Positions 6,770-18,004 of a DNA stretch of 64,000 bases are shown piece after piece; the first letter of the stretch is position 1; every line of letters begins with the position of its first letter. The notes below the pieces were generated by a model. It had not been told where the DNA came from. It saw nothing but the letters and a program-made list of their open reading frames with translations, and made no database searches. Made by a program: the position numbers and the translations under genes. Source of the stretch: Pseudonocardia benzenivorans CB1190 (GTDB lineage Bacteria; Actinomycetota; Actinomycetes; Mycobacteriales; Pseudonocardiaceae); the NCBI RefSeq assembly GCF_000196675.2, contig NC_015312.1:4216001-4280000 (forward strand). The letters run 5' to 3'.

Positions 6770-7941
6770 CGCGCACCCCCGGTGTCGGAACTGGTGACCG
6801 CGTCGTGCAGCCGGGCGAACAACGCGTCGAGCCGCGGGTCGGCGACCGCCCGGTCGCGGCAGTACTCGCCGAACAGCTCCGACGGGCTGCGCTCGGCCCC
6901 CCGGCCCTCCGACGGCCGCGACCCGCGGACCGGCGCCGCGAACTCGGGGTCGATCCGCACCTCCAGCGCGTTCGGCAGCACGGCCGTGACGTCCTCGCGC
7001 AACCCCGCCCGCGCGGGTTCGCGCACGAAGACGCGCAGGTAGTCGTCGCCGACGGTGTCGCGCAACGCGGCCAGCTCGTCGACCGTGCCGTGCAGCGTGC
7101 GCAATCCGCGGCCGGCGGTGACGGGGATGTCGGTGACCCGGGCGGGCGTCGTCGCCGTGGCCTCGACCAGGCAGACGACGCTCGTGTTGGCCTGCTCGCC
7201 GAAGTCGACCGCGAGCGGCGAGCCCGAGTAGTGCACCGGCGCGGGCGCGGCGAGCATCTGCCTGCGGTGCAGGTGGCCCAGCGCCACGTAGTGGGTGTCG
7301 GCCGGGAAGATCGACGCGGGCACCGAGTACTCGAAGATCGACTGGGCGAGCCGCTCCCCTCCCCCGAACGTGCCGTTGAGGACGGTGAGGTGCGCCGCCA
7401 CCAGGTTCACCGAGTCGGTGCGGAAACCGTCGGTGAGCGAGCGCACGATCCCGCGCAGCTGCTCGTCGTAGGCCGCGTTGTGCTGGGCCGGGAGCTGCGC
7501 GACGAGCTCGGCCGCCCGCACCGCGTAGCGCTGCGACAGGAACGGCAGCACCGCGATGCTCGCCCGCTCCCCGCCGCGGGTGACCATGTCGACGACGCCG
7601 CCCTGCTCGGCCGTCCGGACCGTCCCGACCAGGGTGATCCCGGCCGCCGCGGCGAAGGGCCGGTACGCGTCGAGCGCCGCGCCGTGGTCGTGGTTGCCGC
7701 CGATGACGAGGACCTCCGCCCCCGTACCCGCCAGCGCGGTGAGAGCCTGCACGACGAGCTGCTGCGCGGCGGCGTTGGGCGCGGCGGTGTCGTACAGGTC
7801 GCCGGCCACGACGACCAGGTCGACCTCCTGCTCTCGGGCGATCGCGACGATCTCGCGCAGTACCTCGCGCTGCTCGTCGAGCCGGCTGTGGCCCTTCAAC
7901 GTCTTGCCGACGTGCCAGTCGGCCGTGTGCAGGATGCGCAT
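6766..7941 (-). CDS. sbcD: SbcD, Mre11-like nuclease subunit
   Basis: Mn-dependent metallophosphoesterase subunit (391 residues) that cuts hairpins and resects ends together with SbcC. Phosphodiesterase motifs are complete: D8 and H10 in HTADWHVGK, D48 in GDLYD, N83-H84-D85-H86 in GGNHDH, then a histidine in VAAHLTVLNG, and GHLHRRQ. ATG 7941 starts the gene and the stop overlaps the sbcC start by four bases. Upstream lies a long non-coding palindromic repeat array instead of the gene expected in an uninterrupted herA-sbcD unit. Confidence 0.96.
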   Translation of the reverse strand: MRILHTADWHVGKTLKGHSRLDEQREVLREIVAIAREQEVDLVVVAGDLYDTAAPNAAAQQLVVQALTALAGTGAEVLVIGGNHDHGAALDAYRPFAAAAGITLVGTVRTAEQGGVVDMVTRGGERASIAVLPFLSQRYAVRAAELVAQLPAQHNAAYDEQLRGIVRSLTDGFRTDSVNLVAAHLTVLNGTFGGGERLAQSIFEYSVPASIFPADTHYVALGHLHRRQMLAAPAPVHYSGSPLAVDFGEQANTSVVCLVEATATTPARVTDIPVTAGRGLRTLHGTVDELAALRDTVGDDYLRVFVREPARAGLREDVTAVLPNALEVRIDPEFAAPVRGSRPSEGRGAERSPSELFGEYCRDRAVADPRLDALFARLHDAVTSSDTGGAR

Positions 7942-8141
7942 CGCCGCGAACGGTATTCGCCACCCCCGACAGGACCGCCGCCGGGCGCCCGGCGCGTCCC
8001 GCGGCCCGCCGCCGGGCGGTGAAGATGGACGCGGCGCAGGTGACCCGCCGCCCCGGGTGGGGCCGCCGCTCAGGTTGCCGCTGCCCAGGACGAAGGGACG
8101 GACGCCGACAACGGCCGCCGCTTCGTCGAGCCGCTGACCTG

Positions 8142-8875
8142 GTGATCACTGATCGCGGGACGTGCGGTGCTCTGTTCGACCTCAGCGTCCCTGGATCGAC
8201 GATCAAGTGCGCTCCGCCGCGGACGCCACACGCGCACACAGGCGTCCTCCCGTGTCCTCGACCCACGAGGATCCCCAATCATGATCACGATCCGCGGGAC
8301 CTGAGCGCCGCCCATTGCGCCCATGTCCCGGCGATGGCGATCAACGAGGTCCGGGACCGTGGAACTCCCTAGCTGGACGGCCACAGACCGCAGCCTGTCC
8401 CCGGCCACGGCGAAGATCGCCATGCCCGGGACCTCAGCGCTGCGTATTGCGCTCATGTCCCCGCCACGGCGATCAACGGGGCGGCCCAGCCATCAAACCC
8501 GCCCGCCGCGGACAGTCGCCGACCACAGCTGTCCCCGACCACCGCGAAGATCACCATCCTCGGGACCTCAGCACCACCCACTGCGCCCATGTCCCGGCAA
8601 CGGCGATCAACAGGGTCCCTCGGCCATGAAACCCCCGAGCCGGACCGCCGCGCACGCAGCCTGCCCCCGATCACTGCAGCGCCGTCGGTTGCGCCGATGT
8701 GGGGTGCTCGAGACGACCTCGGCGTCCCTGGACCGACGATCAAGGTGTGCTCCCCCGCGGACGCCATACGCGCGCAAGGCTTCCCCGTATCCCCTACCCA
8801 CGAGGATCCCCAACATGATCACGATCCGCGGGACCTGAGCGCCGCCCGTTGCGCCGATGTCCCCGTCACGGCGAT
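8142..8875. repeat. Array of ~135-bp imperfect palindromic repeats, left part
   Basis: Non-coding stretch upstream of sbcD. The conserved core reads roughly GATCACCATCCCCGGGAC, then about 24 bases (CTCAGCGCC...GCGCCCAT), then GTCCCGGCAACGGCGATCAA. The two outer parts are imperfect inverted copies, so each unit can fold. Cores start near 8142, 8281, 8411, 8547, 8680 (decayed) and 8815, a spacing of 130-139 bases. A second, longer copy relation links 8178-8332 with 8717-8865. No convincing gene is present; the frames across it lack start/RBS pairs and vary between copies. The last unit is cut by the IS21 element at 8875. Confidence 0.85.
8870..8875. repeat. Left 6-bp target-site duplication GGCGAT of the IS21-family element
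   Basis: GGCGAT directly precedes the terminal TGACAG of the element and recurs directly after the other terminus at 14799-14804. Joining the flanks restores a normal array unit (CACGGCGATCAACGG). Confidence 0.85.
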
Positions 8876-8966
8876 TGACAGCGGCCAGTCCAAACTCCCC
8901 GTAGGCGGCCATTTACCGCCCCACTGATGGCCAGCGATCTCCCCGCTGGCGGCCAGATATCTCCCC
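8876..8966. repeat. Left terminal repeats of the IS21-family element
   Basis: Four degenerate copies of a GGCGGCCAG...CTCCCC unit lie at about 8881-8900, 8904-8922, 8926-8944 and 8948-8966. Such subrepeats are the usual IstA binding sites in IS21 elements. Confidence 0.8.
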
Positions 8967-9005
8967 GGTGATCAAGCATCCGATGCCGGTGGTGAGGGTC
9001 TGCCG

Positions 9006-10592
9006 GTGAAGCGAGACGAGGAGATCATGGAGATCCTGGAGGCGTTCGACCTCACGGGCAGTTACCGCGCCGCCGCGGAGTTGGCCGGTTGTGATCACCA
9101 CACCGTCGCCCGCTATGTGGCGCTGCGGGAGGCCGGTCAACCCCCGGTCGCTCGCGAGCACCGGGCACGACCGATCGATGAGTACCTGGACAAGATCGAA
9201 GAACTGGTGGTGCGCTCCGACGGGCGGGTGCGCGCCGACGTGGTGCACGAGCGGCTGCTCGCGATGGGCTTCACCGGCGGGGAGCGCACCACCCGCCGCA
9301 CCGTCGCGCAGGTGAAGGCCCGGCTGCGGGCCGGGCAGCGGCGGGTGTTTCGGCCGTGGGTGGTCGAGCCGGGGCTGTGGCTGCAGTGGGACTGGGGCGA
9401 GGGCCCCCGCGTTGCCGGGCGCCGCACGAATCTGTGGTGCGCGTGGCTGGCCTGGTCGCGGTTCCGGGTCGTGCTCGCGGTCTTCGACCGCACCCTGCCC
9501 ACGATCGTGGCCTGCATCGACACCACGCTGCGCCGGCTGGGCGGGGTGCCGACCTACGCGCTGACCGACAACGAACGCACCGTGTCGGTCGATCATGTCG
9601 CGGGGATCGCGGTGCGCCACCCGGAGATCGTCGCGGTCGGGCGGCACTACGGGATGACGATCCGCACCTGCGTGCCGGCGGACCCGCAGTCCAAGGGCGG
9701 GTCCGAAGCGACGGTGCGGATCTCCAAGGCCGACCTCGTCCCGACCGCGGCGAACCTGCTCGAGGAGTACCGCACCTTCGCTCAGCTTGAGACGGCGTGT
9801 CGAAGCTTCTGCGAGCAGGTCAACGCGCGGCCGCATCGGGAGACCCGCCGCCCGCCGGTCGAGGCGTTGGCCGAGGAACGCACCCGGCTGCATCCGTTGC
9901 CCGATCGGCCGTTCACCGTCGCGTTCGGCACGACCCGGCGGGTGAACTGGGACGCCACCGTCTCGGTCGACGGGGTGCGCTACTCGGTGCCGCATCAGCT
10001 GGTCGACACTCGAGTCTGGGTCCGGTTCCACGGCGACGACCTGGTCATCACCGCCGTCGATGCCCCGTTGGAGGGGCACGGACCCGGCAGCGGCCCCACA
10101 GAGGTCGCCCGCCATGCCCGCTCGACGCCGGGCACGCCCTCGATCCGCGACGAGCATTACCCGCCACCCACCACGGCCGCGAACGCCGCCGGAGAACGCA
10201 CCCCACGCGCGGGCAGTGCCGCGGAGGCCGAGTTCCTGGCGCTCGGCCCGGGCGCAGCGTCCTGGCTGGTCGAGGCGGCCGGGGCGGGTGCGCGCGGGGT
10301 GCGCCGGAAGATGGCCGAAGCGGTCGCGCTGGCGAAGCTGCACCCACCCGGCGAGGTCGACCGCGCGCTGGGCACGGCCGCGGTCGCGGGCCGGTTCGCC
10401 GAGAACGACGTCCTGCGCATCCTCGCCCACCAAGCCGGCCGCAACGTCAACAAGCCCACCATCCGCGCCAGCGAGGACCACAGCTTGCAACCCGGCACTT
10501 CCGCCTGGTCCGGCTTCGGCATCACCCCACCACCCGAAACCGACCCGTCAGGGCTCGACCCGGCAGGGCTCGACCCGGCAGGGCCGTCATGA
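9006..10592 (+). CDS. istA: IstA, IS21-family DDE transposase
   Basis: Transposase of 528 residues. An N-terminal helix-turn-helix (GSYRAAAELAGCDHHTVARYV) is followed by an RNase-H-like DDE core: first Asp in LQWDWGEGP, second in ALTDNERTV, and Glu in PADPQSKGGSEATVR. A C-terminal Mu-B-like strand region (VSVDGVRYSVPHQLV) is present. Start GTG 9006 follows the left terminal repeats. The stop overlaps the istB ATG (ATGA at 10589-10592), the standard coupled istA-istB arrangement. The last residues (SGLDPAGLDPAGPS) are encoded by a 15-bp tandem repeat. The enzyme looks intact. Confidence 0.95.
   Translation: MKRDEEIMEILEAFDLTGSYRAAAELAGCDHHTVARYVALREAGQPPVAREHRARPIDEYLDKIEELVVRSDGRVRADVVHERLLAMGFTGGERTTRRTVAQVKARLRAGQRRVFRPWVVEPGLWLQWDWGEGPRVAGRRTNLWCAWLAWSRFRVVLAVFDRTLPTIVACIDTTLRRLGGVPTYALTDNERTVSVDHVAGIAVRHPEIVAVGRHYGMTIRTCVPADPQSKGGSEATVRISKADLVPTAANLLEEYRTFAQLETACRSFCEQVNARPHRETRRPPVEALAEERTRLHPLPDRPFTVAFGTTRRVNWDATVSVDGVRYSVPHQLVDTRVWVRFHGDDLVITAVDAPLEGHGPGSGPTEVARHARSTPGTPSIRDEHYPPPTTAANAAGERTPRAGSAAEAEFLALGPGAASWLVEAAGAGARGVRRKMAEAVALAKLHPPGEVDRALGTAAVAGRFAENDVLRILAHQAGRNVNKPTIRASEDHSLQPGTSAWSGFGITPPPETDPSGLDPAGLDPAGPS
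10542..10586. repeat. Three tandem 15-bp units at the istA 3' end
   Basis: GACCCGTCAGGGCTC and two close variants follow each other (10542-10556, 10557-10571, 10572-10586), in frame, adding LDPAG repeats to the IstA C-terminus just before its stop. Confidence 0.8.
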
Positions 10593-11236
10593 ACGCGGCC
10601 ACCGGATCAGTGCCGGCATCGGGCGGGGACCCGCTCGCCGAGGCCGTCGCGCTGACGCGGCGGTTGAAGCTGCCCCACATCCGCCGCCACCTCGTCGAAC
10701 TCGTGCCCACCGCGCGAGCACAACGCTGGGACCATGCCGAGCTCGTCCGGGTGCTGCTGGCCGAGGAAGCCGCCGGCCGCGACGCGACGAACCTGCGCAC
10801 CCGCCGCCAACGAGCTGGGTTCCCCGCCGGCAAGACGTTGCACGACTGGGACGCGGGCGCGTCCTGCATCCCGCGCCCCACCCAAGACGCCCTCACCTCG
10901 CTGGAGTGGGTCAGCCGGCGGGAGAACCTCTGCGTCTGCGGGCCGTCCGGGACCGGGAAGTCCCACTTCTGCGAAGCCCTCGGTCAGGCCGCGGTCGAGA
11001 CGGGGATGACCGTGGCCTGGTTCACCATCGAAGACCTCGGCGCCCTCGTGCGTCGTCACCGCGCCGACGACTCGATCACCCGCGCACTCGCGAGACTGAT
11101 CCGCACGGACCTGATCATCGTCGACGACATCGGGCTCCTGCCGGTCAGCCCGGACGCCGCGGAAGGGTTCTACCGGCTCGTCGATGCCGCCTACGAACGC
11201 CGCTCCCTGGCCATCTCCAGCAACCTGCACCCGTCA
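10589..11236 (+). pseudogene. istB: istB, 5' fragment (split by nested element)
   Basis: AAA+ helper ATPase of the IS21 transposase. The first 216 codons are intact: Walker A GPSGTGKSH, Walker B LIIVDDIGLLP and the conserved SSNLHPS near the break. After 11236 the frame runs into unrelated sequence (KAHMFDRTC...) and stops at 11386. The missing end, starting GFDEIMPKTLATATVDRLLHH, is found at 14544-14687. Joining the pieces gives ...HPSGFDE... and a 263-residue protein, the normal IstB length. The insertion removes the sensor-2/C-terminal part, so function is probably lost. Confidence 0.9.
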
Positions 11237-11282
11237 AAAGCGCACATGTTCGACCGAACCTGTGTCAGGTCGCGCCGAAACA

Positions 11283-12929
11283 TCACGGGTTCGGCAGCCG
11301 GCCGGCGTCGACGTGGTCGGCCAGATAGATCAGTGGGGACTGCGGGTCCATCCCGAACGCGGCCGCGACGAGCTTGGGGTCCATGACGTTGACCAGGTCG
11401 ACCAGCCGGGTGCTGCGGATCATGCGGGGCGCGGCGCCGCAGGGGTCGAGGACGTGGCTGAGATAGGCCGTCGACGCCGCACGGCGCCCGGCTTTGGTGC
11501 CCTTGGTGACGATGACGTGCGGATTGTCGGTTCGCTGCTGCGCGCGGTGGGCAAGGCAGCGCTGCAGCACCGACCAGCTGGCCGGGTCGAGCGGGACCGG
11601 GTGCGGCCGCCGGCCCAGCCGCACTGCTCGGGCGTGTTCATCGACGTCATCGATCAGCATCAGGCGCATTTCCTGGCTGGACGCGCCATGCAACAGCGCG
11701 AGCATCCCGACCAGTGCCTCATGCGGATGCACCCCGTCGCCGGCGGCAGAATCCGCGCTGAGGTCGGTGGTCCACCGCCGAAACAGCGATCGTTGCTCGG
11801 CGAGGGTCAGGGTCGACCCGCGGAAAGCGCTGGGCTCGGAGGCCGACAGATCTCGGGCGGGATCGACGAGGATCAGCCGGCGCGCGCGGGCGAAGCGGAA
11901 GAACTGGCGCAGCACGACCAGCCGCCGCTTGCGCGAGGCCGGCATGCCGGCCAGGAACGCCTCGATGTCGCCGATGTCGACCAACTCCCACCCGTGCTTG
12001 CCACGCTGCTCGGTCAGGAACTGAGCGAGGTCGCCCACGATGGTCAGCGCCGTCTCGACGGTGTGGTCACTGCGCGCTCGGGTTCCGGCGCGACGCGCGC
12101 GTTCACGCGCATGCAGCATCTTCTCGCAGAACCCGGCCACCGCCGGCCGCAACGGTGCAGGGACCCGGTCGACACGGCGCCGCCGCCGCCCGGCGGCGAG
12201 CTGTTCGGGATGGTCGGTGGCCAGGGCGAGCTGGTGGTCGGTGAAGAAATCCTCGAGCACCCGCGCGAGCGGGCCCATGGAGCGTCCTGGGCGGCGGGCT
12301 CGGTCCAGCACCGCCGCCGGCAGATTGGAGTGCTCATCGGCCAGCAGTCGCCCCAGCTCGGTGATCAGCATGCAGGCCCGGCTGGGGCAGTAGCGCGAGG
12401 CAACGTGAGCGGTGAACGACTCGAGCCAGTCGGGCGGGCTCGCCAGCCGCTCGGCCAACGCCTCGGCGCGGATGAACGGCCGAGCGGGGTGTCGCTGCCA
12501 ACACGCCGAGCACAGCCCGAGACCGGCATGGCGGCGCACCCGACCGCAGCCAGCGCAGGGGCGCGGCGGCTGGGGCCCTGGCTGCGGGCGTGAGCAGTGG
12601 CCACACCATCCCGTCGCCGCGCGCAAGTGGCCGAGCCTGGCGCAGCGCGGGCAGATCTGCATCGCGGCCGCCCGCTGATCGGTGCGCCGGCAGGTCTTGC
12701 ACAACGTCTCGGTGGCCGAACGGCGCGGCCTGTCGCAGCGTCGGCAGCGGCGTGAGCACAACACGCACCGGCCAGTGTCTGCCTGCAGGACACGCTGGTT
12801 CCCGCAGGCCGGACAGGGCTCCTTAGCTGCATTCTCACGAACCCGCCGGGAACAACGACAGCATCGTGGCTGATCCAGCAGCCCGACGGGCGCGCCGCAG
12901 TCGGCGCAGTCACGCTGCTTCTTACCCAC
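11283..12929 (-). CDS. Zinc-finger, tyrosine-recombinase-like protein with degenerate active site
   Basis: 548 residues in two halves. Residues 1-145 carry ten CxxC pairs (8/11, 23/26, 39/42, 55/58, 62/65, 77/80, 93/96, 109/112, 125/128, 140/143), a string of zinc ribbons. The second half has a SAM-like core-binding region (DLAQFLTEQ...VLRQFFRFARARRLI) and a recombinase-like fold. Canonical residues are only partly kept: the first catalytic Arg position reads GASSQEMRLM, the H-x-x-R box reads IRSTRLVDL, and the final Tyr could be that in LIYLADHVD. Start GTG 12929 has GAGG upstream. It is probably an accessory DNA-binding partner of the catalytic recombinase; activity of its own is uncertain. 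Confidence 0.75.
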   Translation of the reverse strand: MGKKQRDCADCGAPVGLLDQPRCCRCSRRVRENAAKEPCPACGNQRVLQADTGRCVLCSRRCRRCDRPRRSATETLCKTCRRTDQRAAAMQICPRCARLGHLRAATGWCGHCSRPQPGPQPPRPCAGCGRVRRHAGLGLCSACWQRHPARPFIRAEALAERLASPPDWLESFTAHVASRYCPSRACMLITELGRLLADEHSNLPAAVLDRARRPGRSMGPLARVLEDFFTDHQLALATDHPEQLAAGRRRRRVDRVPAPLRPAVAGFCEKMLHARERARRAGTRARSDHTVETALTIVGDLAQFLTEQRGKHGWELVDIGDIEAFLAGMPASRKRRLVVLRQFFRFARARRLILVDPARDLSASEPSAFRGSTLTLAEQRSLFRRWTTDLSADSAAGDGVHPHEALVGMLALLHGASSQEMRLMLIDDVDEHARAVRLGRRPHPVPLDPASWSVLQRCLAHRAQQRTDNPHVIVTKGTKAGRRAASTAYLSHVLDPCGAAPRMIRSTRLVDLVNVMDPKLVAAAFGMDPQSPLIYLADHVDAGRLPNP

Positions 12930-12995
12930 GACCTCGCCAACCTGGTCGATCGTGTCGGGCTCGCCGTCGTCCCCGCAGTCGTTCTCGTGGTCCGG

Positions 12996-13313
12996 TCACA
13001 TCGGCGGCAGGGATCGACCACCGGTCCCGGATGCTCGAGGACCGTCGAGGGCTGTCGGACGAGTCGGCGCGACCGGTCGCTCGACCGGAGTGGTGTCGAT
13101 CTCGAACAGGTCGTCGGGAGTGCACTGCAGAGCAGTGCACAGCGCGATCAGCGTCGAGAGCTTGATCTGGCTGGGTTCCTTGGTGAACAACGCCGACACC
13201 GACGCCGCGGACATCTCCACGCCAGCCCGCTCCCCGAGCAGCCGACGCAGTTGCGTCCCGGTCCAGACCTCGCGCTGCGCCGCGGCCATCCGCAGCCGCC
13301 ACCGAATCCTCAT
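12996..13313 (-). CDS. Xre/Cro-type helix-turn-helix regulator of the nested element
   Basis: 105 residues. A Cro/C1-type HTH spans about residues 18-70: LRRLLGERAGVEMSAASVSALF with the recognition region, then IKLSTLIALCTALQCTPDDLF. The tail is proline/arginine-rich without recognisable structure. ATG 13313 overlaps the stop of the upstream recombinase by four bases (ATGA), so expression is coupled. A role as repressor or excision-direction factor of the element is inferred from position. A near-palindrome before the operon (14426-14441) is a candidate site for it. Confidence 0.85.
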   Translation of the reverse strand: MRIRWRLRMAAAQREVWTGTQLRRLLGERAGVEMSAASVSALFTKEPSQIKLSTLIALCTALQCTPDDLFEIDTTPVERPVAPTRPTALDGPRASGTGGRSLPPM

Positions 13314-14404
13314 CGCCGTTCATCCTCACCGGCGCGCTCGACAGGCTCGTCGGGCCCGCCGAGCTCGGACAGCGTGGTGGACACCGCGCGTCGATATGCA
13401 TCCTCGATGAACGTCGCCGAGGGGCGGACATACCGCATCGTCGAGCTGACCGTCCAATGCCCGAGCAGCTGCTGAATCGCGACCAGGTCCACGCCGCGCT
13501 CATAGTTGTGGGTTGCGCACGCTCGCCGCAGCGCATGCGGGCTGAACCACTCCCCGGCCGCGCGGCCTTCCAGCTCCATCAACCGGCGCAGCCGGTTGCG
13601 GATCGTCCCCCGATGCAGGCTGCCGCCGGACTCGTCGGCGAACAGCACCGGTGAGTCGGGGAACTTGCCGCGCACGTCGTTGAGGAACCACCGCAGCACC
13701 AGGTCCAGGCCATCGAGCATCGGGACCCACCGCGGCCGCGGACCTGATGTCCTCGCTGCCTTGCCGAACCGGACATGCAGCTTCCCGAACGGCCCGCGGT
13801 TGAAGTGCACATCCGCCACATCGAGCAGCGAGGCCTCCTCCGAGCGCAAGCCAGCGTGATAGAGCGTCCGGAACAACGCGTAGTCCCGCGCGGCCGGCGC
13901 ATACTTGCGGGCGGTCGCGATCCGGCCCTTCAGGAACTCGAAGAACTGCCCGACCCGTTCCGGGGTCGGCGGCGGCATCGAGTCCGGCGAGTCGTCCCCG
14001 ACATGGCGGGATGCGTTGAACTCATCCACCGGGCAGACCAGCGAGACACCGAACCAGGCCTGGATCTCGGCGGCCTTGCGCACCTGCAGGAACCGGTGGA
14101 AGCCCTTGAAGATCTGCACATAGTCACGGCGGGTCGACGCCTTCCGACCCGCAATGGCCAGATCGCCCACGACCCGATCGACGTCCTCAGGCGTCACCTC
14201 CCACGCCGGGCGGCCCAACGCCGTCAGCGTCCGCTCCAGCAACCCGAAGTCGTTCTCGATCGTCACCGGGCTGAACCCACGCGCCCGCCACGACGCCACG
14301 AACGCCTCGACGCACTCGCCCTGGAACTCCCACGGATCCGTCGTCGCCGGCGCCGCTACCGACGCAGCACCCGCGATCACTGTCAGCCGCCGCGTCACCC
14401 GCAC
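13310..14404 (-). CDS. Tyrosine recombinase/integrase of the nested element
   Basis: Site-specific recombinase of 364 residues with an N-terminal SAM-like core-binding domain (about 27-115) and a full catalytic domain. Catalytic residues are visible: R187 in HAGLRSEEASLL, H290 and R293 in SPHALRRACATH, H316 in LLGHWTVSSTM and the nucleophile Y325 in MRYVR. GTG 14404 is the first start; GTG 14398 has better spacing from AGAGG and may be the real one. It is first in a three-gene leftward unit and is the likely enzyme that put the element into istB. Confidence 0.92.
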   Translation of the reverse strand: MRVTRRLTVIAGAASVAAPATTDPWEFQGECVEAFVASWRARGFSPVTIENDFGLLERTLTALGRPAWEVTPEDVDRVVGDLAIAGRKASTRRDYVQIFKGFHRFLQVRKAAEIQAWFGVSLVCPVDEFNASRHVGDDSPDSMPPPTPERVGQFFEFLKGRIATARKYAPAARDYALFRTLYHAGLRSEEASLLDVADVHFNRGPFGKLHVRFGKAARTSGPRPRWVPMLDGLDLVLRWFLNDVRGKFPDSPVLFADESGGSLHRGTIRNRLRRLMELEGRAAGEWFSPHALRRACATHNYERGVDLVAIQQLLGHWTVSSTMRYVRPSATFIEDAYRRAVSTTLSELGGPDEPVERAGEDERR

Positions 14405-14425
14405 ACCCTCTTCGCACCTGAATGA

Positions 14426-14441
14426 TTAAGGCAGCGCCTAA
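14426..14441. promoter_or_regulatory. Near-palindrome upstream of the recombinase operon
   Basis: TTAAGGCAGCGCCTAA is a near-perfect dyad 22 bases upstream of the first recombinase start, in a locally AT-richer patch. It is a candidate operator for the Xre-type protein of the same unit or a recombinase core site; neither is shown. Confidence 0.4.
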
Positions 14442-14543
14442 CATAGCGATCTCCCACCTGGAAGATCCACAGGGCCCATCCAGGGCGCATCGGTGCAGGC
14501 ACGAGCACAGATCCGGCTACACGAACAAGTGCCAGCCCCAGAT

Positions 14544-14687
14544 GGATTCGACGAGATCATGCCCAAGACCCTGGCCACCGCCACGGTCGACCGGCTCCTG
14601 CACCACGCCCACATCGTCGTCACCGACGGTGACAGCTACCGGCTCGCACAAGCCACCGCCGGCAAGGGGGTGAGCCCGTTGAGCTGA
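14544..14687 (+). pseudogene. istB: istB, 3' fragment
   Basis: Encodes the missing IstB C-terminus (GFDEIMPKTLATATVDRLLHH ... GKGVSPLS) up to TGA 14685-14687, in a different frame from the 5' fragment because the insert is not a multiple of three. Apart from the insert both parts look undamaged. Confidence 0.88.
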
Positions 14688-14703
14688 CCACGCACGACCG
14701 AGG

Positions 14704-14798
14704 CGGGGAAATATCTGGCCGCCGTCGGGGAGAAGTATCTGGCCACCAGTGGGGAGAACTACTGGCCGCCAGCGGGGAGATCAAGCTGGCCGTTGACA
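14704..14798. repeat. Right terminal repeats of the IS21-family element
   Basis: Four inverted copies of the left-end subrepeat (GGGGAAATATCTGGCCGCC and variants) lead to the terminal GTTGACA. The reverse complement begins TGTCAACGGCCAG, matching the left terminus. Confidence 0.8.
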
Positions 14799-14804
14799 GG
14801 CGAT
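14799..14804. repeat. Right 6-bp target-site duplication GGCGAT
   Basis: Second copy of the GGCGAT that flanks the left end, followed by CAACGG, the normal continuation of an array unit. Confidence 0.85.
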
Positions 14805-15783
14805 CAACGGAGCGGCCCAGCCATCAAACCCGCCCGCCCCGGACAGTCACCGACCACAGCTGTCCCCGACCACCGCGAAGATCACCATCCCCGGGACCTC
14901 AGCACCACCCACTGCGCCCATGTCCCGGCAACGGCGATCAACAGGGTCCCTCGGCCACGGAACTCCCGAGCCGGACAGCCACGGAACTCCTGAGCCCGAC
15001 GGCCACGAACGCAGCTTGTTCCCCGACTGCCGCAAAGATCACCATGCCCGGGACCTCAGCGCCGCTCAGCGCGCTCATGTCCCCGTCACGGCGATCAACG
15101 GGGCGACCCAGTCCTCAAACCGGCCCGACCCGGATGGCCGCGGACCGCAGCCTGTCCCCCAGCATCGCGAAGATCACCATGCCCGGGACCTCAGCGCCGC
15201 TCAGCGCGCCCATGTCCCCGCCACGGCGATCAACGGGGCGGCCCAGCCGTCAAACCCGCCCGCCCCGGACAGTCACCGACCACAGCTGTCCCCGACCACC
15301 GCGAAGATCACCATCCCCGGGACCTCAGCGCCACCCCCGCGCGCCCATGTCCCCGTCACGGCGATCAACAGGGCAGTCAGCCTCGATGCACCGAGCCGGA
15401 CGGCCACGGACCCCGGCGTGTCCCGACCGCCGCGATGATCACCGTCCCCGAGACCTCAGCGCCATCCACCGCGCGTGTGTCCCGGTACCGATGATCACCC
15501 CGCGAGCCGACCAGGGGCCTGGGCCGAGGGGCCCAGGGCCACGCGACCGCGCGCTCCGCCGCCCCGAGCCCCGCACACCCACGCGGCCACACCAGCCGCA
15601 CTGGATCACCGCCCTCGGACCCCAGCGCCTGTGCCCGGCAACGATGATCACCGTGTCGGTCGGCCAGGAGTCCTCCCGACACACCACCACATGCACAGCC
15701 ATGGACCAGCGACTTCGGCGCTACCCGATGCCCACCATCCCCGGTCCCGGCCTCCACGCACGACGCCGTCCCGCCGGCGTCGA
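14805..15783. repeat. Array of ~135-bp imperfect palindromic repeats, right part, and flank
   Basis: Continuation of the array beyond the IS. Cores start at 14878, 15035, 15170, 15304, 15435 and 15601 (degenerate). Subtracting the IS and its duplication puts 14878 at 134 bases from the last left core (8815), so both parts were one array. Copies near 14810-14960 are almost identical to 8481-8630, showing recent internal duplication. From about 15650 to 15783 nothing recognisable remains. No gene is supported here. Confidence 0.85.
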
Positions 15784-16185
15784 TCATCCGGCGGTCGCGG
15801 CAGCCGTCAGGCGGCGCAGGGCGCCCGTCAGCGCCTCCACGGCACCACCCGACTCCGTGAGCCCGTGCCGGGCCGCGATCCAGGACGGCTCGTTCCAACC
15901 CAGCCACACCGTGCCGGCTTCGTCCTCCCAGGCGAGTGCCTTGAGGGGCAGGTCGATGCCCGCGGTCTGGTGCTCCTGCATGAGCGGCGTCCCACCCTGC
16001 GGACGCCCGAACAGGAGCAGCACGGTCGGCCGCAGCGGGAGGCCTGCACTCGCGGCCGCGGCGGCGTGGTCGATCCGGGCGAGGACGGTCAGGCCGGCGG
16101 CCTCGACGGCGGCGGCCAGCCGGTCGACCGTCTCCGCGACGGGGTACGGGGACGGCACGGCCGTGAGGCCGTCGATCTGGGTCAC
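15784..16185 (-). CDS. DUF302 family protein
   Basis: 133 residues, the usual size of a single DUF302 domain. Typical features are SPYPVAETVDRLAAAVEAAGLTV, an IDHAAAA segment, LRPTVLLLFGRPQGGTPLM and LPLKALAWEDEAGTVWL. The biochemical role of the family is unknown. Start GTG 16185 has GGAG about ten bases upstream. It begins 34 bases after the herA stop in the same direction, so it is probably in the herA transcript. It is the last gene before the palindromic array. Confidence 0.85.
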   Translation of the reverse strand: MTQIDGLTAVPSPYPVAETVDRLAAAVEAAGLTVLARIDHAAAAASAGLPLRPTVLLLFGRPQGGTPLMQEHQTAGIDLPLKALAWEDEAGTVWLGWNEPSWIAARHGLTESGGAVEALTGALRRLTAAATAG

Positions 16186-16219
16186 GTCGGGCTCCAGGGA
16201 CTCGGACTGGCTGCGCGGC

Positions 16220-18004
16220 TCAGAAGGGCGGCGGGTCGTCGGCGCCCGGGAGCCCGGCGAAGGGGTCGCGGCGGCGCCCGCCGTTGGTCCCCGCGGCGCC
16301 CGGCGCCGTCCCGGCCGGGGCGGCAGCCGGCTCGACCGCCTCCGACTCCCGCGTCGCCCACGCCGGGAACGGGAACTCGACGGCCAGCGGCACCGGGATC
16401 TCGGGCTGGGAGACGAACATCGTCCCGGGCTTGGCCAGCACGGCGCGGGCGCGCTGCGTCGGGGGCAGGAACCCGTACTCGGGACGTCCGGCCTCGGCCG
16501 GATCGAGCCGTCCGACGATCTTGACCGACGAGTTGGACACGATCCGCCGCTCGACCTCGCTGGCCGTCTGCTGGGCGCCGACCAGGATGATCCCCAGCGA
16601 CCGGCCGCGTTCGGCGATGTCGAGCAGGACCTCCTTGATCGGGCTGGACCCCTCGCGCGGCGCGTACTTGTTGAGCTCGTCGATCATCGTGAACAGCAGC
16701 CCGCCGGGCCCGGCCTGCTCCTTGCGCGCGGTCTCGGCGGCGAGCGTGACGCCGACGACGAACCGCTGCGCCCGCTCCGGCAGGTTGTGCAGGTCGACGA
16801 CGGTGACCTGGGTGTGCTCGGTCGTCACCCGGCGGCCGGGGGTGTCGGGCAGGTCGCCGCGGACGATGCCGCGCAACGGCTTCAGGCTCGACCGCAGCCG
16901 CCGCAGGAACGCGTTGACCGTGCCGACGCCGGTGACGGGGCCGGCCCAGTCGCGCCGGGCGTCCTCGTCGGTGAGCCGGTCGGAGACGAACTCGACGAGG
17001 TCGTCGTAGGTGCGCAGGACCTGGCCCTCGATCATCACGGCACCCGAGTCGCCCACGGCCGACACCTCGCGCTTGAGCCGGGACGCGACCTGGTGGATGA
17101 CCATCGTGTACTGGTTGCGCTCGTCCTCGGCGTCGGCGAAGACGTAGGGCAGCAGCTCGCGCGAGCAGAACTCGCCGAGCGTCCACCAGAACGCCGCGAT
17201 CCCGTGCGTGCGGCCGACGACGTGCGGGCGCCCCGAGGGGTCGTCGGGCATCGGCGGGGCGAAGAAGCCCACCGAACCGAAGGGCGCGGCGACGAGGTCG
17301 AGGCGGGCGTAGTCGGCGCGCAGGTCGTCGTCGAGGTGCACGTTGGGCCGGTCCAGGAACAGCAGGTCCTCGCCCTTGACGCTGAACACGAGCGCCTTGG
17401 AGTTGAGTGCCCGGCGGCCGAGCGCGCCGCCGGTGAACAGCGAGTAGAGCAGGAACAGCGCGAAGCTCGTCTTCGTCGCGACGCCGGAGATGCCGCTGAT
17501 CGAGACATGGCCGCCGCGGGTGCCGTCGAGGAACTCGAGGTTGAGGTAGACCGGTTCCCCGTCGCGGCCGAGTCCGGCGGCGACGCGCTTGTCCATCCGG
17601 TCGAAGTACAGCGCCTGCGCCCGCTCGGCGCCCGTGGCGCGACGGACGAGCTCCCCTGGCCGCGGCGGTACGTAGCACTCGGGCTCGACCCGCGTCGTCA
17701 TGATCTCGGCGATCTCCTGCACCTGCGCGGGCAGCACGCCGTCGGAGATCAGGAAGACGTCGGAGCCGAACGTCGCGCCCTCGTGCCGGGCGCGGACCTC
17801 GGTGACGACCCCGCTGGTGACGACGACGCCGACGCCCGGGACCTCGCGCTCGGTGGCGACGACGTCGTCGAGCTGCAGGTAGGCGCCCGGGGCGAGCGCG
17901 ACGGCGAACTCCAGGGGCGTGGAGTCCTCGGTGCCGACGACGCGCCCGACCGACGCGGCGACGGCGTCCTCCGGCGACCCCGAGAGGTCTGACAAGCCGG
18001 CCAC
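16220..18004 (-). CDS. herA: HerA-like hexameric DNA-translocating ATPase
   Basis: 594-residue member of the HerA/FtsK-type ATPases that feed DNA ends to NurA. An N-terminal beta-rich HAS-barrel-like part (SVGRVVGTEDSTPLEFAV) precedes the P-loop region GISGVATKTSF near residue 168. That P-loop is atypical, with Thr in place of the usual Gly before the Lys. Walker B is FTMIDELNKYAP near residue 440. LGIILVGAQQTASEVERRIVSN matches the HerA segment that follows. GTG 18004 has GAGGAGG upstream. In archaea herA, mre11, rad50 and nurA form one unit; the same order appears here with the array and IS element between herA/DUF302 and sbcD. Confidence 0.85.
   Translation of the reverse strand: MAGLSDLSGSPEDAVAASVGRVVGTEDSTPLEFAVALAPGAYLQLDDVVATEREVPGVGVVVTSGVVTEVRARHEGATFGSDVFLISDGVLPAQVQEIAEIMTTRVEPECYVPPRPGELVRRATGAERAQALYFDRMDKRVAAGLGRDGEPVYLNLEFLDGTRGGHVSISGISGVATKTSFALFLLYSLFTGGALGRRALNSKALVFSVKGEDLLFLDRPNVHLDDDLRADYARLDLVAAPFGSVGFFAPPMPDDPSGRPHVVGRTHGIAAFWWTLGEFCSRELLPYVFADAEDERNQYTMVIHQVASRLKREVSAVGDSGAVMIEGQVLRTYDDLVEFVSDRLTDEDARRDWAGPVTGVGTVNAFLRRLRSSLKPLRGIVRGDLPDTPGRRVTTEHTQVTVVDLHNLPERAQRFVVGVTLAAETARKEQAGPGGLLFTMIDELNKYAPREGSSPIKEVLLDIAERGRSLGIILVGAQQTASEVERRIVSNSSVKIVGRLDPAEAGRPEYGFLPPTQRARAVLAKPGTMFVSQPEIPVPLAVEFPFPAWATRESEAVEPAAAPAGTAPGAAGTNGGRRRDPFAGLPGADDPPPF

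Follow-up and report, generated by a model that had tools for sequence, protein, structure and literature searches.

The window analysed here, a 64,000-nucleotide stretch of the Pseudonocardia benzenivorans CB1190 genome (NC_015312.1, positions 4,216,001 to 4,280,000), contains an array of imperfect palindromic repeats bounded by two minus-strand genes, sbcD (start at 7941) and a DUF302 gene (15784-16185). The first-pass annotation had counted about twelve such repeats of ~135 bp in the sbcD-herA region. Eleven hairpin units scored with a covariance model at E≤0.01, and a twelfth, degenerate unit was recognized from alignment and a direct repeat only. The array unit is a copy of a 62-bp palindrome that is dispersed through the genome in 24 clusters; the array is not a unique feature but the largest of these. 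The array features, with their scores under covariance models R1 and R2, are as follows (window coordinates).

8143-8205, minus strand: hairpin unit 1, diverged (R1 23.4 bits, R2 35.2 bits)
8282-8343, minus strand: hairpin unit 2 (R1 82.2 bits)
8414-8475, minus strand: hairpin unit 3 (R1 83.8 bits)
8548-8609, minus strand: hairpin unit 4 (R1 84.0 bits)
8667-8744, minus strand: degenerate unit resembling unit 1 (alignment; direct repeat D7, 84%; below covariance-model reporting at E≤0.01)
8816-8877, minus strand: hairpin unit cut within its end tag by an insertion sequence (IS), to which the final matched bases belong (R1 70.8 bits; sequence)
8876-14798, plus strand: IS21-family element with target duplication GGCGAT (borders by eye; Pfam)
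14879-14940, minus strand: hairpin unit (R1 87.9 bits)
15036-15097, minus strand: hairpin unit (R1 88.3 bits)
15171-15232, minus strand: hairpin unit (R1 88.6 bits)
15305-15367, minus strand: hairpin unit (R1 81.4 bits)
15436-15497, minus strand: hairpin unit (R1 71.3 bits)
15603-15650, minus strand: shortened terminal unit (R1 33.3 bits)

The start-to-start distances of the units are 139, 132, 134, 268 (2 × 134), 157, 135, 134, 131, and 167 bases, mostly 131-139; the 157-base interval holds a 24-bp tandem duplication, without which 133 bases are left. Coordinate arithmetic across the insertion, with the IS and its duplication removed, gave 6063-5929=134, the same spacing that had been noted before. 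The repetition exceeds chance, as Tandem Repeats Finder scored the array at 574 with a period of 135. Each ~134-bp unit comprises a 62-base hairpin and a spacer of ~72 bases, and 107-nt segments covering repeat and spacer are 61-97% alike. The array was enlarged by local tandem duplication of the ~134-bp unit. The 6-base target duplication of the IS lies at 8870-8875 and 14799-14804 (by eye). Within the IS, istA is open and istB is split by a nested element (~11237-14520) bearing two tyrosine-recombinase-like open reading frames and a third encoding a Cro-type helix-turn-helix protein. Pfam matches in the region were Mu-transpos_C_2, IstB_IS21, HTH_26, and Phage_integrase; the second recombinase-like frame gave only a weak Phage_int_SAM_1 match below the cut-off of that family.

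Folding of the units, noted earlier, was confirmed for four of them. As RNA, the minus strand gave z-scores of -3.8 to -7.2 and energies of -36 to -41 kcal/mol, and the plus strand -2.9 to -4.2 and -22 to -32 kcal/mol; on either strand, 0 or 1 of 200 shuffles folded equally well. The complete 135-base unit folded less strikingly (z -2.0 minus, 0.0 plus). Under DNA parameters, only the minus strand of two units stood out (z -4.3/-4.8 vs -0.9/-1.5). The view that the array is neither a known RNA nor a CRISPR (clustered regularly interspaced short palindromic repeats) array also held. No Rfam family matched at E≤1 within 7500-16500, and searching 12 other loci returned 8 matches, all to microRNA models and far under their cut-offs. 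The repeats are not near-identical and the spacers are mutually similar rather than unique, unlike those of CRISPR; cas genes were not searched for.

Searching CB1190 (genome G000 in our set) with blastn revealed scattered matches to the array unit. The covariance-model search proposed in the first-pass annotation, with a model built from the nine best cores, returned 67 sites at E≤0.01. Of these, 58 lie beyond the array and form 23 more clusters. The count is a lower bound, 150 of 8939 candidates having been scored. Twenty-three regions were taken for study, one of which (L075) was chosen on a match above the E≤0.01 threshold. The dispersed copies, 50 of them ungapped, share a common dyad of 62 bases; its borders are sharp and the flanks beyond them unrelated, and the copies occur in clusters of 1-6. 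The consensus unit reads TGATCGyCG-N5-GGGACATGrGCGC-N8 followed by its mirror. Spacers are alike within the array, unrelated between clusters, and duplicated inside a few of them. Half of the clusters (12 of 24) lie at 4.9-6.05 Mb of the chromosome, ~1.1 Mb of the 7.1-Mb contig.

The palindromes lie preferentially at gene ends. Across 63 loci with 73 clusters, 64 could be typed with our own gene calls: 33 in convergent, 25 in tandem, and 6 in divergent gaps; of the remainder, six were at locus edges and three overlapped or lay inside a called gene. A circular chromosome has as many convergent as divergent gaps, and 33:6 is therefore a strong lean to gene ends, albeit with a few clusters resting on weak matches and with copies in related genomes that are not independent. 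In five cases the terminal TGA of the hairpin is itself the stop codon of the adjoining gene (same calls).

Both ends of the dyad carry a nearly fixed tag, GATC, while the stems differ between species. Other genomes have GATC at 109 of 112 ends, the dispersed copies of CB1190 at 95 of 100, and the array units at 15 of 16; for the longer TGATC, which includes the outer T, the counts were 93 of 112, 89 of 100, and 10 of 16. In a tag enrichment scan, GATC ended 50 hairpins, whereas no other 4-base palindrome ended more than 14; however, 40 of these 50 had been the basis for choosing loci, and the remaining 10 are weak evidence. Pairing is retained as the stems change. An alignment of 40 sequences from 11 genomes, a chosen subset of the 114 ungapped sites, showed changes on both sides in 22 of 29 pairs and a covariation of 0.340 versus 0.152 in shuffled alignments (0 of 500 as high) and at most 0.105 in slid controls; the cells count sequences, not events. 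In ten other genomes (56 ungapped sites), pairing exceeded that of shuffled partners in 11 of 31 column pairs, with z≥3 and a maximum of 9.0, and fell below it in the pair 6-57 (z -2.3). P. sulfidoxydans (G030) alone contains four stem types (GGGAC, GGCGC, GGTGC, and GGCGG) with mostly matching partners.

The 50 dispersed copies in CB1190 are 82% identical in their arms, 38% in the inner N5, and 32% in the loop, where 26% is expected at random. Young copies would have N5 and loop as alike as the arms, indicating that the copies are old and that selection, or a copying process acting on the arms, maintains these arms. Some positions are shared across species. In a comparison of 72 loci in all, 8 of 18 loci from four relatives aligned with a CB1190 cluster locus. 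Hairpins share a gap in five pairs (L073/L257, L077/L251, L084/L058, L086/L259, and L092/L252), in two of which they stand at the same spot, L084/L058 among these with little sequence likeness kept. L249 and L250 have a common hairpin spot and match L091 only loosely, and L258 has its hairpin in the neighbouring gap.

Model R1 matched 36 of 60 genomes of the genus at E≤0.01, CB1190 included. Scanning 84,980 genomes, one per species, with a 24-base pattern retrieved 37 stretches, 34 titled Pseudonocardia and 3 Pseudonocardiales bacterium; this pattern detects just 40 of the 114 ungapped sites and speaks for this stem type alone. Model R2 at E≤0.001 matched 42 of 200 genomes in the family search and 27 of 118 in the class search, CB1190 included in each. 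Most matches beyond the genus, with one to few sites of 22-34 bits, are probably chance hairpins. Four genomes of a sister genus (g11) contain 2-5 sites each, up to 50.9 bits, and a distant Actinomycetes genome of another family (G277; L268-L274) has seven TGATC-tagged 63-base hairpins of up to 41.2 bits; its assembly is fragmented (380 contigs, contamination 4) and may include foreign contigs. The hairpins in g11 and G277 are 63-64 bases long and have the same GATC ends on other stems. The family belongs to Pseudonocardia and probably to some other Actinomycetes. A viral origin was considered and rejected: the exact pattern had no match in viral sequences, and a looser tag pattern matched at least 120 stretches, with a stem z below -3 in 1 of 80 loci among the matches listed. 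Plasmids contained no match to the hairpin pattern.

In 12 of 17 loci from G004, G029, and G011, the 62-mer forms the apex of a ~600-bp foldback whose arms of 184-237 bp are 70-82% complementary. Such foldbacks, among them L104:2274-2852 and L114:2204-2824, have the ends GTGGGCGCGCCGTTCCCGGC, and the two loci that were folded gave -478 to -587 kcal/mol. No masked inverted repeats of this size were found at the clusters of CB1190. Further types of GATC-ended hairpins, 60-62 bases long with quite different stems, stand beside the foldbacks at L113:2071-2205 and L104:2941-3000.

SbcCD cuts hairpins, and the first-pass annotation had seen significance in the position of the array beside sbcD. A search for SbcD at E≤0.001 matched 37 of 40 genus genomes, comprising CB1190, 29 close relatives (in one, the locus runs into a contig end), and 7 genomes with weak matches of ~88 residues; G027, G028, and G036 had no match at this threshold. 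When ~1.5 kb on each side of the 30 sbcD loci was inspected, the array was present only in CB1190, and 10 others gave weak hits of 15-24 bits. Querying with array plus DUF302 matched DUF302 but not the array in G030, G048, and G052. In P. sulfidoxydans, sbcD, DUF302, and herA are kept, and the sbcD-DUF302 gap bears by eye an AbrB/PIN-like (VapBC-type) insert, located at L201:2960-3960 with a 9-base tandem repeat. In G021 and G040, herA directly adjoins sbcD. The proposed link to SbcCD or HerA was not borne out, and the striking position is most likely a coincidence.

The stronger fold of the minus strand might suggest a function in RNA or single-stranded DNA, a candidate that was tried and rejected. 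The initial asymmetry test gave p=0.005 with the orientation picked by model score; a second test gave p=0.02 in CB1190 and 0.10 in other genomes. The dnaA gene lies at position 226 of the main contig; if the terminus is taken to lie opposite, an excess of G·T over A·C follows the leading strand in both replichores (32:14 and 60:30; 92:44 over the 50 dispersed sites). The bias agrees with the direction of replication in 18 of 22 untied clusters, the window included (p=0.004), and spacers carry the same skew as hairpins (GC 0.20, TA 0.25). In tandem clusters, the better-folding strand is unbiased relative to the coding strand (37:42 over 13 clusters in CB1190, 12:10 elsewhere). Because the bias tracks replication and, in tandem clusters, is independent of the coding strand, the RNA strand-choice reading was rejected, and we take the better fold of one strand as a by-product of replication-strand skew.

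Judged from location and constraint only, the likeliest role of the palindrome is that of a structured gene-end element. On balance, we favour a family of REP-like (repetitive extragenic palindromic) elements whose copies are kept as hairpins at gene ends and for GATC-tagged ends that some factor reads. Located in a convergent gap or directly downstream of a stop codon, a copy would form its hairpin in either direction of transcription and might halt RNA polymerase or protect RNA 3' ends. A factor may recognize the GATC-tagged ends and perhaps also once spread the copies; in CB1190 it would not be a REP-associated tyrosine transposase (RAYT). If this is correct, GATC palindromes would mark gene ends in Actinomycetes. 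To our knowledge, transcription termination is less well understood in this class.

Several observations weigh against this interpretation. CB1190 alone has 9 convergent, 14 tandem, and 1 divergent clusters, without a predominance of convergent gaps. In 50 copies the hairpin has no T-run after it, the flank being C- and then G-rich. The compensatory changes, evident between genomes, showed no excess within CB1190, where the arms hardly vary and thus do not covary beyond chance, and its mid-stem N5 pairs less than expected. Related copies inflate the covariation count; protein recognition of a duplex dyad would yield equal covariation, and template-switch correction of palindromes could also produce the signal. 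The search models hold the tag and the pairs, so that tag constancy and pairing are somewhat favoured, as they also are by the use of top-scoring loci from other genomes. No empty site was found in the genomes compared, which include no close strain pair, and this leaves movement of the hairpin putative.

The same dyad could instead serve as a duplex binding site, its 62 bp being read by a nucleoid-associated or topology protein without extrusion of a hairpin. Gyrase and IHF read the bacterial interspersed mosaic elements (BIMEs) of E. coli in this way (PMC2267715). The arms are conserved in sequence within a genome and not only in pairing, the copies form clusters of 1-6, convergent gaps are places where supercoils should meet, and the better-folding strand is independent of transcription in the tandem clusters of CB1190. 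A sequence reader, however, would hardly allow the stems to differ within P. sulfidoxydans while their pairing stays. Gbn, a known actinobacterial GATC binder, prefers GATCWT (PMC9239103); this motif extends inward from an end at only 11 of 114 sites (inward reading only), and Gbn was rejected as the tag reader. We regard a duplex site as unlikely. A miniature element that is purely selfish, depends for its spread on some transposase encoded elsewhere, and persists only where it is harmless would account for species-specific stems with a fixed tag, which recall REP/RAYT pairs, for the avoidance of divergent gaps, and for the longer foldbacks; Y1_Tnp genes, moreover, occur in the hairpin-bearing G003, G027, and G029. 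They are found, however, in only 5 of 60 genus genomes, and neither in CB1190 nor in the hairpin-rich G004, G005, G006, G030, and G031. Near-random N5 and loops beside constrained arms, together with hairpins in the same gaps of different species, also argue against this possibility, which we consider rather improbable.

Two readings specific to the array fare worse than these. A minus-strand transcript working as a structured RNA would agree with the lower fold energies of that strand, but the replication-following bias, equally skewed spacers, the lack of bias along the coding strand, and the lack of an Rfam match make it very unlikely. A role of the array as substrate for SbcCD or HerA-NurA, or as their regulator, is suggested by its adjoining sbcD and by the hairpin-cutting activity of SbcCD. 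The absence of the array near sbcD at 29 other loci, the 23 other clusters elsewhere in the genome, and the 10 hairpin sites of G027, which has no SbcD match, render this idea scarcely credible.

The palindrome resembles several known systems in part. Like an intrinsic terminator, it is a GC-rich hairpin at gene 3' ends, differing in having no T-run, a fixed tag, and a repeated family. It shares inverted-repeat structure, multiple copies, and non-coding character with miniature inverted-repeat transposable elements and foldback elements, from which it differs in that no target duplication, empty site, or partner transposase is known for it. Integron attC sites and their integrase-less clusters (CALIN) likewise consist of clustered imperfect hairpins, about as long as the units here and with a middle spacer that stays unpaired; the ends here are TGATC/GATCA rather than the GTTRRRY/RYYYAAC of attC. 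An integron integrase was rejected as mobilizer, 0 of 62 genomes exceeding the TIGR02249 cut-off, with weaker tyrosine-recombinase matches in all 62.

The closest likeness is to REP/BIME elements, which comprise GTAG and CGTC superfamilies mainly in Proteobacteria (PMC3733652). Shared with them are a dispersed, intergenic occurrence, mostly in convergent or tandem gaps (here 33 convergent, 25 tandem, and 6 divergent of 64), a stem that varies beside a fixed tag, tags that sometimes provide a stop codon, occurrence in clusters, and IS elements landing in the repeats (PMC3733652 and PMC1525189). The Pseudonocardia palindrome differs in length and borders (62 bp with sharp borders vs 20-40 bp for REPs), in its tag (GATC, paired, at both ends vs unpaired GTAG or CGTC at one end), and in its host group, Actinomycetes. 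GTAG REPs go with RAYTs, but CB1190 has none, and a RAYT was rejected as mobilizer despite the Y1_Tnp genes of some hairpin-bearing relatives. RepRanger lists REP counts under a broader definition for three other Actinomycetota species (PMC12306157), and stem-loop families were counted in Mycobacterium and Corynebacterium (PMC2267715). No paper joining Pseudonocardia with repetitive extragenic palindromic sequences was found, and titles and abstract openings of the literature on such repeats do not name this one. It is possible, and we suggest tentatively, that these palindromes represent a third REP-like superfamily with both paired ends GATC-tagged, present in several Actinomycetes lineages (Pseudonocardia, g11, and G277) and spread or maintained by an undescribed enzyme or binding protein other than a RAYT. 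A symmetric-tag family of this sort in high-GC Actinomycetes, lacking a RAYT, would suggest that palindromes of this kind can be spread or read in a second way.

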